NCBI GenBank assembly: GCA_018830405.1
Contig: JAHJSF010000085.1
Span: forward strand, 1-10,776
DNA: 10,776 bases
Direction: 5' to 3'
DNA from: Nitrospinota bacterium
GTDB taxonomy: Bacteria; Nitrospinota; Nitrospinia; UBA9942; JAHJSF01
Made by a program: the position numbers and the translations under genes. The notes below the pieces were generated by a model that saw only the letters and a program-made list of their open reading frames with translations, was not told the DNA's origin and did no database searches. Position 1 is the stretch's first letter; every line of letters starts with the position of its first letter. Shown one piece after another: positions 1,306 to 10,693 of this stretch.

Positions 1306-2274
1306 CTATCCAATATCTCCGGAAGACCCCTTTATAACAAGGTCCGGATTGGATATGGTTACCCTGCTGTTAGGCGGGACAGAGCTTGTAAGCCAGACGT
1401 TACCCCCTATAACCGAGTTTTTACCGATAACAGTCTTCCCCCCCAGTATAGTGGCATTGCTGTAGATGGTCACATTATCCTCAATGGTCGGGTGACGTTT
1501 TTCTCCATCTCTTAAGGCATTCCCTTCACTGTCTCTGGGGATACTCAGCGCGCCAAGGGTGACCCCCTGATAGACCTTAACATTCTTCCCTATAACGGTG
1601 GTCTCGCCTATAACCACACCGGTGGCATGGTCGATAAAGAAACTCCGCCCGATTGTTGCCCCAGGATTTATATCTATTCCTGTCCGGCTATGGGCCCGTT
1701 CCGACATCATCCTTGGAATAAGTGGGATATCATAGCCATACAATACGTGGGCAATCCGGTGGGTGGCAATCGCCTCGACACAGGGGTAGCTCAAGATTAT
1801 CTCGTCATAAGAGGTGGCAGCCGGGTCTCCGTTATAGGCGGCCTCAACATCATCCTTAAGATAATCGCGTATCTCCGGCAGCTTCTCAAGTAAGGCCCGC
1901 ACCGCCTTATTGGCCTGAATCAGGCACTTATCCTCAGGAACCGGGTTGCAAACCGCCTGCTTGCACTGATATCTCAAGGCCCGCACCGCCTGCTCGGTCA
2001 GGTGCTGAAAGATGCTGTTTACCTTCTCCCCGACAAAATAATCTATATCGGCCCAGGTAACATCGGTATGCCCCAGATAACCGGGGAAGAGAACCTCAAA
2101 GAGGTCATCCATTATATGGTAAACCTCCTTACGGCTGGGGAGATTCTTCTCCTGGATATGGTTTATCCCCTTCAGGTCGCTATAGGTCTTAGAGACCGCC
2201 CCTACAATTTCTTCAAGTTCCTTCCGCTCCAAACGAGCCCCGTGGTTAGAATCTACTTTTTTTTGTTCAGACAT
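1306..2274 (-). CDS. cysE: serine O-acetyltransferase, long form
   Basis: CysE transfers acetyl from acetyl-CoA to L-serine, giving O-acetylserine, the carbon skeleton for cysteine synthesis in the cytoplasm. The protein is 322 aa, longer than the ~273 aa of E. coli CysE, with an extended helical N-terminal domain (about residues 1-195). The C-terminal part is a left-handed beta-helix of hexapeptide repeats from about residue 200. The catalytic pair known from E. coli (Asp143/His158) corresponds to D201 in GIDINP and H216 in IDHATG. The acetyl-CoA region contains YQGVTLGALS and a longer loop (SIPRDSEGNALRDGEKRHP) typical of the long SAT subfamily. The start ATG at 2274 has an AAGGAA ribosome site about nine bases upstream. 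It is the first gene of the minus-strand set leading into the ThiI-like gene and mnmA, so cysteine supply and sulfur use may be co-expressed. No cysK is visible. Confidence 0.93.
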   Translation of the reverse strand: MSEQKKVDSNHGARLERKELEEIVGAVSKTYSDLKGINHIQEKNLPSRKEVYHIMDDLFEVLFPGYLGHTDVTWADIDYFVGEKVNSIFQHLTEQAVRALRYQCKQAVCNPVPEDKCLIQANKAVRALLEKLPEIRDYLKDDVEAAYNGDPAATSYDEIILSYPCVEAIATHRIAHVLYGYDIPLIPRMMSERAHSRTGIDINPGATIGRSFFIDHATGVVIGETTVIGKNVKVYQGVTLGALSIPRDSEGNALRDGEKRHPTIEDNVTIYSNATILGGKTVIGKNSVIGGNVWLTSSVPPNSRVTISNPDLVIKGSSGDIG

Positions 2275-2365
2275 GTTTATAATTCCTTATGATTTTCTAA
2301 ACCTTTTTATGTTTCTGCACGATCATATTTAAAACGATAACAAGGCGGCGATAAGTAAGCGACTC

Positions 2366-2409
2366 ACAACCCCCTTATTCCCCCTTAACAAAGGGGGATA
2401 GGGGGTTGT
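2366..2409. repeat. C-rich dispersed palindrome, copy 1
   Basis: This is a two-tier hairpin. The outer arms ACAACCCCC (2366-2374) and GGGGGTTGT (2401-2409) pair over 9 bp. The inner arms CCCCCTT (2380-2386) and AAGGGGG (2391-2397) pair over 7 bp around the loop AACA. A related copy in opposite orientation is at 10617-10659, with the same inner stem and one decayed outer arm. It could end transcription or be a non-autonomous mobile palindrome; the sequence does not decide this. Confidence 0.8.
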
Positions 2410-2430
2410 ATATTGAGGAGCTTACGACAA

Positions 2431-2454
2431 AGCCAACGCAGTTAACGTTTGAAT
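2431..2454 (-). repeat. 24-bp intergenic repeat, copy 1
   Basis: Read on the minus strand, this matches 10266-10289 (plus strand) at 23 of 24 positions; the shared core includes TAACTGCGTTGGCT. Both copies lie in intergenic DNA close to C-rich palindromes, which suggests a family of dispersed intergenic repeats and not chance. Confidence 0.7.
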
Positions 2455-2522
2455 AGAGTTATGCAGTGGTTAGTATAATACTTTGGGGGTTATATGTCAT
2501 CAAGATGCTGTTAATTTGTTAA

Positions 2523-2690
2523 CCCCTTTCTTGCTCGTCCAAGAAAGGGGAAAAGAATACGCCGCCTGCTCATTTTCTTGACGGCTTGAAATAACGTCTC
2601 TTTAAAGCGCCTCAAAAACTCGCTCCGTTCAAACAGTTTGAGGCTTGTTTCTTTAAAGAGCCTATTCCAACCCTAAAAATGAGATGGCGG
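2523..2690 (+). repeat. structured ~168-nt element, copy A (plus orientation)
   Basis: Four helices can be drawn. P1 is a perfect 11-bp hairpin, CCCCTTTCTTG (2523-2533) with CAAGAAAGGGG (2540-2550), loop CTCGTC. P2 is CCGCC (2562-2566) with GGCGG (2686-2690), continued after a 2x2 internal loop by CTCATTTT (2569-2576) with AAAATGAG (2676-2683). P3 is CTCTTTAAAG (2598-2607) with CTTTAAAGAG (2651-2660). P4 is GCCTCAAA (2609-2616) with TTTGAGGC (2637-2644). Conserved unpaired blocks are ACGGCTTGAAATAACG and CCAACCCTAAAAAT. An inverted copy lies at 3587-3755, and the paired bases differ between copies in a compensating way. It could be a structured RNA or a non-autonomous mobile element; I do not recognise the family. 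Confidence 0.8.
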
Positions 2691-2808
2691 GAGAAAAAAT
2701 CGGTTGCCTTCGGCTCTTCATACGTTGGTTAAAATTTTTCACTGAAATACCTAAGGATTATAGACATCCACTCTCCCTTTAAAAATAAACACCGTATCCC
2801 AGAAATTC

Positions 2809-3528
2809 TTATCCTCTCATTCTTTTCGCCAATCTCTTCATAATTATTGCCTCCCTACTACCCCAAAAATCACGTTGTATCAGACACAGAGGAGCGTCCG
2901 GGCGCATTTGCGTGACATCAAAGGGGTATTTAGCTCTCTGGCTATCGACTTTGATGTAGGCAACTATGTTAGCAAGATAAAATCGGTAGTATCGTATACC
3001 ATCAATCCTTTCTGGAAAAGGATCCATTATCTTGGCCCATTTGCTAGGGTCATCAAATATGGCAAGAACCACACCAAAGAAGTCTGTTTCCCCTGGATTA
3101 TGGCTTAAGATTGCCTGACGTAGAACCTCTTGGTGGGAACCAAGATTCACTTTTTTAAACATAGAGTGGGATGATGCTGCAGACCTCCACAACATGGACA
3201 TGAAGAAGAGTTTGAGCTTAGCATAGTCAAAGCTCTTGTAGAAATAGGCCGCAGTTTCCTCTCCATCATTTAGAGGTTCTGCGTTCGGAAACTCGTGGAT
3301 AAGTAGATGACAAGCATAGTCGTCAAACTCTTGAAAAATGTGTTCTCCCTCAGCGGTCACAATGGTCTTATCATATACTCCAACTGGGGCTTTCTTCGGG
3401 TATTCGCCGGGAACATTGGAAAGAATCCTAAGGGAAGGGCTTGCCGTCTTGTCTATGAGATAGAAACTCTTAGGAATAACATGTGCCTTGACCCCTAGAC
3501 CTTCGATTCCTGTGAGTTTACATATCAT
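2809..3528 (-). CDS. orphan protein with HNH-like N-terminal motif, function unknown
   Basis: This protein of about 239 aa has no function I can assign. Its N-terminus, MICKLTG followed by AHVIPKSFY, resembles the start of HNH-type zinc-finger proteins, where a CxxC precedes an H-I-P-x-S/A-F segment. The cysteines are mostly absent: CKLTG has one Cys, and the later block IVTAEGEHIFQ stands where a second CxxC often lies. The middle (FFMSMLWRSAASS, then VNLGSHQEVLRQAI) looks like a conserved helical core of a group of uncharacterised proteins. There is no signal peptide or membrane helix. I chose the ATG at 3528-3526, since TAGGT lies about seven bases upstream and the motif begins at once. 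An in-frame ATG at 3543 would add five residues but lacks a ribosome site. The gene stands alone between cysE and ligA, flanked by inverted structured repeats, which suggests it was acquired as a unit. Nuclease activity is not supported. Confidence 0.75.
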   Translation of the reverse strand: MICKLTGIEGLGVKAHVIPKSFYLIDKTASPSLRILSNVPGEYPKKAPVGVYDKTIVTAEGEHIFQEFDDYACHLLIHEFPNAEPLNDGEETAAYFYKSFDYAKLKLFFMSMLWRSAASSHSMFKKVNLGSHQEVLRQAILSHNPGETDFFGVVLAIFDDPSKWAKIMDPFPERIDGIRYYRFYLANIVAYIKVDSQRAKYPFDVTQMRPDAPLCLIQRDFWGSREAIIMKRLAKRMRG

Positions 3529-3586
3529 TATGAAACCTAACATAGAAAGATTGTGTCAAAAAAACTAAGACTCCCATTCCCCAACT

Positions 3587-3755
3587 CCGCCATTTGATTT
3601 TTAGGATTGGGATAGGTTGGTTGAAGGGACAGCCTAAAACTGTCTGAGCGAAGCGAGTTTTTTAGGCGCCGAGACCAACCGTAATTTCAAGCCGTTTAAA
3701 AAATCAACAGGCGGTGTCTTCTTTGCTTCGTTTCTTGGACAAGCAAGAAATGAAG
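3587..3755 (-). repeat. structured ~169-nt element, copy B (minus orientation)
   Basis: On the minus strand this aligns along its whole length with 2523-2690. P1 pairs 3744-3750 with 3731-3737 (TTTCTTG/CAAGAAA, loop CTTGTC), extended past one A-C mismatch by CTTC/GAAG (3752-3755 with 3726-3729). P2 pairs 3710-3714 with 3587-3591 and 3699-3707 with 3594-3602. P3 pairs GGTTGG (3675-3680) with CCAACC (3615-3620). P4 pairs GCCTAAAA (3660-3667) with TTTTAGGC (3632-3639). The unpaired blocks ACGGCTTGAAATTACG and CCAATCCTAAAAAT are nearly unchanged from copy A while stems have changed on both sides. It lies 58 bases before the orphan gene's chosen start. Confidence 0.8.
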
Positions 3756-3771
3756 AAGAAAACATATTTCA

Positions 3772-3804
3772 AATCTCCCCTAACCCCTCTTTGCTAAAGA
3801 GGGG
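3772..3804 (+). repeat. 33-bp C-rich hairpin repeat, copy 1
   Basis: The hairpin CCCCTCTTT (3784-3792), loop GCT, AAAGAGGGG (3796-3804) is preceded by AATCTCCCCTAA. The 33 bp match the reverse complement of 10661-10693 at 32 positions. Both copies lie just beyond the 3' end of a minus-strand gene, here ligA, so they may help end transcription. The identity of the non-hairpin part shows they are copies of one repeat. Confidence 0.8.
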
Positions 3805-3809
3805 AAAAT

Positions 3810-5820
<2,011 letters not shown>

Positions 5821-6012: not shown

Positions 6013-6062
6013 GCTTCTCCTCTTTGATTATTTTTGTATATCCCGAGGACAGGTTTTAATAG

Positions 6063-6126
6063 GCTCCCCTTGGCAAAAGGGGGGAAGGGAGAACTGCTCT
6101 TGCCCCTCCCTTCAGGGAGAGGCAAG
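6063..6126. repeat. tandem GC-rich hairpins
   Basis: There are two hairpins. The first uses CCCCTT and AAAGGGG near 6066-6082. The second pairs CTTGCC (6099-6104) with GGCAAG (6121-6126) and CTCCCT (6106-6111) with AGGGAG (6114-6119), with one mismatch and a 2-nt loop. They start 14 bases beyond the stop of the 121-aa gene. There is no T-tract, so this may be a dispersed palindromic repeat that slows or partly ends transcription between that gene and the DUF6485 gene. Confidence 0.65.
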
Positions 6127-10265: not shown

Positions 10266-10289
10266 ATTCAAACGCTAACTGCGTTGGCT
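10266..10289 (+). repeat. 24-bp intergenic repeat, copy 2
   Basis: This matches the reverse complement of 2431-2454 at 23 of 24 positions. In this copy AACGC (10271-10275) and GCGTT (10281-10285) form a small stem, and an outer stem CATTCAAA (10265-10272) with TTTGAATG (10297-10304) competes with it. It starts 11 bases after the ychF stop and might serve as a weak 3' end structure, without a T-tract. Confidence 0.7.
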
Positions 10290-10616: not shown

Positions 10617-10659
10617 ACAACCCCCTTAATCCCCCTTTGTTAAGGGGGAAGTCTGTTGT
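10617..10659. repeat. C-rich dispersed palindrome, copy 2
   Basis: The inner hairpin CCCCCTT (10631-10637), loop TGTT, AAGGGGG (10642-10648) and the left arm ACAACCCCC match the reverse complement of 2366-2409. The right outer arm has decayed (GTCTGTTGT). It lies between two convergent genes and could serve as a two-way terminator together with the next repeat. Confidence 0.75.
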
Positions 10660-10660
10660 G

Positions 10661-10693
10661 CCCCTCTTTAGCAAAGAGGGGTCAGGGGAGATT
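10661..10693 (-). repeat. 33-bp C-rich hairpin repeat, copy 2
   Basis: The stem CCCCTCTTT (10661-10669), loop AGC, AAAGAGGGG (10673-10681) with its flank is 32/33 identical, on the opposite strand, to 3772-3804. Its outer end overlaps the stop codon of the minus-strand gene at the right edge, so it lies directly at that gene's 3' end. Confidence 0.8.

Follow-up and report, generated by a model that had tools for sequence, protein, structure and literature searches.

Passenger genes that lie between inverted repeats with no transposase inside are known from mobile insertion cassettes (MICs) such as MIC231 of Bacillus cereus and mic-qnrD, the latter having 24-bp terminal repeats and a target duplication (PMC3913671). 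In Neisseria, dRS3 repeats (consensus ATTCCC-N8-GGGAAT, ~700 copies), RS repeats and Correia elements form mosaic elements, and arrays of these have been proposed as recombination handles (PMC3898611). Two further kinds of element bear on the comparison: the MITEs of prokaryotes, which are non-coding, shorter than 500 bp and dispersed in many copies with imperfect inverted ends (PMC10969869), and REP-targeting insertion sequences, which insert in a fixed orientation beside extragenic palindromes (PMC1525189).

Here we compare with these systems a locus from a Nitrospinota bacterium. The source genome (GCA_018830405.1) is a 1.42-Mb draft, 87% complete, and is the sole member of its own family among the genomes compared. 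The window, that is, the whole stretch of DNA analysed, is a complete contig of 10,776 nucleotides (JAHJSF010000085.1, labelled C57).

The cysE-ligA interval

The interval under study (2275-3816) separates two minus-strand genes: cysE, whose 5′ end is at 2274, and ligA, which has its 3′ end at 3817. It and its two neighbours comprise the following features.

1306-2274, minus strand: cysE (serine O-acetyltransferase), left neighbour, GC 50%; from the ORF list, named by sequence recognition
2326-2454, plus strand: repeat R2, ~128 bp, ~15 genome copies, with a 33-bp central palindrome; from a repeat search of the genome
2366-2399, no strand: palindrome ACAACCCCCTTATTCCCCCTTAACAAAGGGGGAT in the centre of R2, with a second copy at 10617-10650; from a repeat scan of the window
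2519-2692, plus strand: R1 copy 1, GGCGG end towards the gene; from repeat search, alignment and fold
~2523-2551, plus strand: outer 5′ hairpin of R1 copy 1, whose other part is the long inner hairpin ending GATGGCGG; from alignment and fold
2809-3543, minus strand: 244-codon accessory gene, the candidate cargo; from the ORF list and homologue searches
3586-3757, minus strand: R1 copy 2, in the opposite orientation to copy 1, GGCGG end towards the gene; from repeat search, alignment and fold
3772-3804, no strand: palindrome AATCTCCCCTAACCCCTCTTTGCTAAAGAGGGG beside the hairpin end of R1 copy 2, with a second copy at 10661-10693; from the repeat scan
3817-5817, minus strand: ligA, the gene for NAD-dependent DNA ligase, to the right of the interval, GC 50%; 37 of 40 genomes have a homologue

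The earlier note on this DNA had placed the gene between two inverted structured elements, and the two R1 copies confirm this arrangement. Three inverted arms, I1 (2552-2645/3631-3724, 94 nt, 78%), I2 (2646-2690/3587-3631, 45 nt, 78%) and I8 (2527-2546/3731-3750, 20 nt, 95%), proved to be fragments of the single element R1; no other inverted repeat in the window is as long as I1 or I2. The island also contains other repeats, namely R2, its palindrome and the palindrome at 3772-3804. It is the spacer of the window that is richest in repeats, but repeats also occur in others (6062-6084, 10266-10289 and 10617-10693). The last 24 bp of R2, a 128-bp repeat with a fixed central palindrome, are found alone at 10266-10289, after a ychF-like gene.

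R1 is a genome-specific repeat with two hairpins

With the island as the query, dozens of matches were obtained in its own genome. A search with the R1 consensus as the query recovered ~30 full or near-full and ~12 partial copies from the same genome, with E values down to 4.5e-66, so these are not chance matches. The copies are ~170-185 bp long and share a mean identity of ~81%, and the family is therefore not young. Each of the two parts of R1 forms a hairpin: the outer 5′ hairpin is CTTC-TTTCTTG...CAAGAAA-GAAG, with CCCC/GGGG and CTCC/GGAG variants in the alignment, and the long inner hairpin has a sharp end at GATGGCGG. Compensatory changes were seen at 17 of the 41 pairs predicted for the two-hairpin fold. 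The inverted arms read CCGCC..CTCATTTTT / AAAAATGAG..GGCGG, with the outer hairpin as an addition. In form, R1 thus resembles a MITE, being short and non-coding with terminal inverted repeats and ~30 full dispersed copies; unlike MITEs, it has no target site duplication and carries an extra hairpin outside its inverted ends, and no parent element was found.

A BLAST search of 59 further genomes from the phylum yielded no match to R1, and a conserved R1 23-mer had no exact match among GTDB species genomes or IMG/VR contigs, from which the records of its own genome may be missing. An Rfam search of the window returned tRNA only, with island matches at a loose threshold being chance-level and no Rfam family for R1, and a literature search with the R1 loop sequence gave no match. 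None of the 29 relatives that have ligA loci carries cysE next to ligA, and none of the 59 genomes contains R1, so the relatives offer no empty site with which the interval could be compared. We also looked for the gene being conserved at this place without the flanking elements, which would have spoken against a cassette, and did not find it.

R1 hairpin ends often adjoin palindromes

All R1 copies examined are intergenic and most are single copies between housekeeping genes (gene names by sequence recognition), with several lying directly 3′ of a stop codon, hairpin end towards that gene. Perfect stems of at least eight pairs were present within 70 bp on the hairpin side of 12 of 28 copies. 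The opposite side had such a stem in 2 of 28 copies, and random 70-mers had one in 3% of cases. The genome contains 14 exact dRS3-like ATTCCC-N8-GGGAAT palindromes (sites include C11:12080, C44:2603, C48:1424 and C119:15318); half of them (7/14) lie within ~50 bp of an R1 hairpin end, and those that adjoin R1 do so at the hairpin end in every case. The R1 hairpin end thus often adjoins a REP-like palindrome, either dRS3-like or of the CCCCTCTTT-AAAGAGGGG type, and in many cases a native gene's 3′ end. Both R1 copies of the window have palindromes other than dRS3 near them: the one at 3772-3804 takes the dRS3-equivalent position at copy 2, and no strong palindrome lies directly at the hairpin end of copy 1. 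Several R1 right flanks (among them 2701-2718 in the window, and loci L032 and L033) carry a small GCGGTAGCCTTCGGCTTTT module and CTCTGTGTCTCTGTGGTTAAA-like sequence as further pieces of the mosaic array.

As a feature of the genome, the R1 system appears closest, by analogy, to the mosaic intergenic arrays of Neisseria: both are mosaic and intergenic and combine ATTCCC-N8-GGGAAT with larger structured repeats near variable genes (PMC3898611), a combination that was found here genome-wide. The differences are that the phylum is another, that there are 14 exact dRS3-like copies as opposed to ~700, and that R1 is likened to the neisserial repeats by description, not by sequence. Insertion in a fixed orientation beside extragenic palindromes, as in REP-targeting insertion sequences (PMC1525189), would explain the polarity of R1; unlike those elements, R1 has no transposase and lies 13-45 nt from the palindrome, not inside it.

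The accessory gene belongs to a patchy, widespread family

The 244-codon gene has a GC content of 43%, compared with 50% in both neighbours; among all genes of the R1 and R2 loci that were fetched, it ranks at the 10th percentile. It had been called an orphan, which it is not: a scan of GTDB species gave 84 homologues, from Proteobacteria, Cyanobacteria, Acidobacteria, Bacteroidota, Verrucomicrobia, Planctomycetes and other phyla, and the gene is present in 7 of 60 genomes including its own, at 32-40% identity. It is a member of a patchy, widespread family, and it was probably acquired. Its true start is likely the ATG at 3528 (MICKLTG).

Residues conserved in the family are C8, H21-x-x-P24, Y57-D58, D74 and F113-x-x-S-x-L-W-R. 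Many members have the pattern CxxC...HIIP...CxxCE; the other cysteines of the pattern are missing from the window protein and several relatives. Pfam HNH_5 matched weakly in 6 of 37 family members (best E 0.016), and the window protein itself matched no Pfam or NCBIfam family. Its predicted fold is confident (pLDDT 91.5), and the model gave no credible PDB match. Our best guess for the protein is an HNH-like nuclease or a form derived from one. No neighbour recurs in more than 5 of 80 loci of the family, and defence models gave no match for the window protein. Candidate vehicles were also considered: a phage origin was rejected, as there was no phage match, as was a plasmid origin, for which there were only distant plasmid homologues, at 25-31% identity.

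Other R1 pairs enclose accessory genes

The earlier note had proposed looking for further genes that sit between inverted copies of this element; we did so and found at least three more inward-facing pairs. Together with the window (C57), inward-facing inverted R1 copies thus surround accessory genes at four places, 0.9-1.5 kb apart. In the three further pairs the members are 1.3-1.5 kb apart. The pair on contig C44 encloses genes for a lipoprotein-like and a 238-aa protein and the pair on C119 a gene for a SIR2_2-domain protein; the pair on C63, where all that is left of one R1 is 30 bp at the edge of the contig, encloses genes for an FMN-reductase-like and a 203-aa protein. Most of the genes inside these three pairs look acquired, in that they are low in GC and the two that were tested, those for the SIR2_2-domain and the 203-aa protein, are absent from all 59 relatives. 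R1 neighbours in direct orientation with toxin-antitoxin-like genes between them are present on C44 and, twice, on C161. On the latter (locus L016, 75-6131), two diverged higBA-like modules each have a remnant of R1 on one side and a full copy on the other, the two being in direct orientation; the R1 3′ end with ~110 bp of flank is duplicated (75-215 and 1637-1780), and the homology shared by the modules stops short of R1, at unequal distances.

Seven R1 gaps are shorter than 1.5 kb, compared with a mean of 1.8 expected for uniform placement of 40 copies (P ~0.001), a null that ignores the confinement of R1 to intergenic space. Among the close pairs, four are inward-facing, three or four direct and none outward, which is suggestive and, as reasoned from these small numbers, not significant against the chance expectation of 1:2:1.

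The genes next to R1 were also compared by GC content, over fetched stretches covering ~574 kb of the genome. With a cut-off of 39% that was picked after the data had been seen, 9 of 25 genes on the GGCGG side fall below it. The corresponding counts are 11 of 269 for contigs that lack R1 (Fisher P 5e-6) and, for the hairpin side, 3 of 26 (P 0.05). Rank tests, which use no cut-off, gave P 0.006 and 0.04, respectively, for the two comparisons. Genes inside R1 pairs are also lower in GC than the other genes of the fetched loci (Mann-Whitney P 0.001). The excess of low-GC genes at the GGCGG side and the absence of the SIR2_2 and 203-aa genes from relatives therefore indicate that the inner side of R1 tends to face acquired genes. 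Hypothetical genes with a GC content of 36% lie directly at the GGCGG end of a single R1 at L025 (6416-7813), L023 (1095-2344) and L027 (1352-2332); beyond these genes, no second R1 could be detected.

Tests of joint mobility

The layout of the window is that of a MIC, with an inverted R1 pair bracketing the passenger gene at 2809-3543 and, in agreement with the earlier note, no transposase within the island, the single gene-sized ORF there having no Pfam or NCBIfam match. In contrast to MICs, the repeats are ~170 bp long, belong to different subfamilies, stand mostly alone elsewhere and have no target duplication. Around single R1 copies or pairs, the mean shared word was 3.82 compared with 3.83 in permuted flanks, and thus no target duplication was detected, although one could have decayed; the outer flanks of the window pair have a 5-mer in common, which is of chance length. 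In the R1 tree the window copies fall into different clades (local support 0.97 and 0.93) and are not sisters, and the members of R1 pairs are of different subfamilies with no consistent left or right type.

Targeted searches gave two transposase genes, neither bounded by R1: a RAYT-like Y1_Tnp gene (locus L046 on C26, 1465-2316) with its own flanking repeat of the GTCATTGCAAGACCTGACCCC type, unrelated to R1, and an IS110-type gene (locus L170 on C7, 808-1878) with no R1 at its ends. Both were rejected as drivers of R1, the RAYT because its flanking repeats are of another kind and the IS110-type gene because R1 does not flank it. A portion of the GTCATTGCAAGACCTGACCCC-type repeat is also found after one R1 copy (L027). 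The layout also differs from that of integron gene cassettes, in which a recombination site follows each gene in direct orientation; the R1 copies are inverted around the gene.

Discussion

The explanation we favour, at about an even chance of being correct, is that the interval is an accessory-gene island within a mosaic intergenic repeat array, in which the R1 copies arrived independently around an acquired gene. R1 would have spread as a small non-autonomous element, its copies arriving singly, next to palindromes that lie where native genes end, with the adjoining palindrome setting the orientation, while foreign genes came to occupy the same spacers. If orientation is set in this way, a foreign gene in a spacer can sit between R1 copies that face inward and yet arrived separately. 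The 244-codon gene would have come by horizontal transfer, its product working by itself as an accessory protein, perhaps an HNH-like one, and the R1 repeats may later serve as recombination handles, by analogy with the Neisseria arrays. This account, the simplest of those considered, accords with the intergenic and mostly single R1 copies, the stems and dRS3-like palindromes at their hairpin ends, the window copies not being sisters, the lack of a target duplication, the higBA homology that stops short of R1, and the low GC and patchy occurrence of the gene. Independent arrival alone leaves the excess of close R1 neighbours and the low-GC inner genes unaccounted for, and the lack of a strong palindrome directly at the hairpin end of window copy 1 also counts against it.

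Were the window copies the ends of a transposase-free, MIC-like mobile cassette, with the gene as its cargo and a transposase acting in trans to move it, the four inward pairs 0.9-1.5 kb apart around accessory genes, the low GC of the inner genes and the lack of a transposase inside would all be expected, and the bracket layout together with the polarity of low-GC genes towards the GGCGG end favours such a cassette. The cassette layout proposed earlier is borne out to this extent, but not beyond it: there is no target duplication at pairs or singles, pair members are of different subfamilies without a consistent left or right type, R1 is mostly solo, the homology between the two higBA modules on C161 ends at unequal distances from R1, and the Y1_Tnp and IS110-type genes lack R1 flanks. 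We therefore regard a cassette as unlikely, and movement of the gene by the R1 pair as a unit as possible at a similarly low level. The same GC polarity would arise if R1 copies were recombination handles or landing sites, with incoming DNA taken up beside them so that foreign genes gather at the GGCGG side and between copies; on C44, C161 and C63, the clustering of both full and truncated copies around genes of the toxin-antitoxin and hypothetical kinds points the same way, as does the analogy with the Neisseria repeat arrays (PMC3898611). At ~81% identity, however, R1 copies are poor substrates for homologous recombination, and as R1 was found in no other genome searched, no R1-bearing donor is known, which leaves this explanation improbable too.

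The least probable of the explanations considered, and one to which we give little credence, is that R1 serves chiefly as a structured RNA that is expressed, or as an element at transcript ends, its proximity to accessory genes being incidental. The compensatory changes in the two hairpins (17/41 pairs) and the copies directly after stop codons would suit such a role, but a DNA hairpin fits the compensatory changes equally well, R1 belongs to no Rfam family and occurs in both orientations relative to genes, and a simple scan revealed no terminator-like site at the window copies. A more speculative possibility, which we consider doubtful, is a gene-capture system without a transposase, whose polar boundaries would be R1 pairs or single R1 ends: foreign genes would be inserted at the GGCGG end and could be moved, between copies that face inward, by a trans-acting enzyme.

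Repeats that mark the sites of foreign genes offer a route to learning how compact uncultured genomes take up genes, and R1 is a concrete polar marker of this kind, its hairpin end pointing to a native gene and its GGCGG end to an acquired one. If this polarity is causal, it would represent a new gene-capture route; if it is not, R1 would still provide a clear example, outside Neisseria, of accessory genes surrounded by mosaic repeat arrays.
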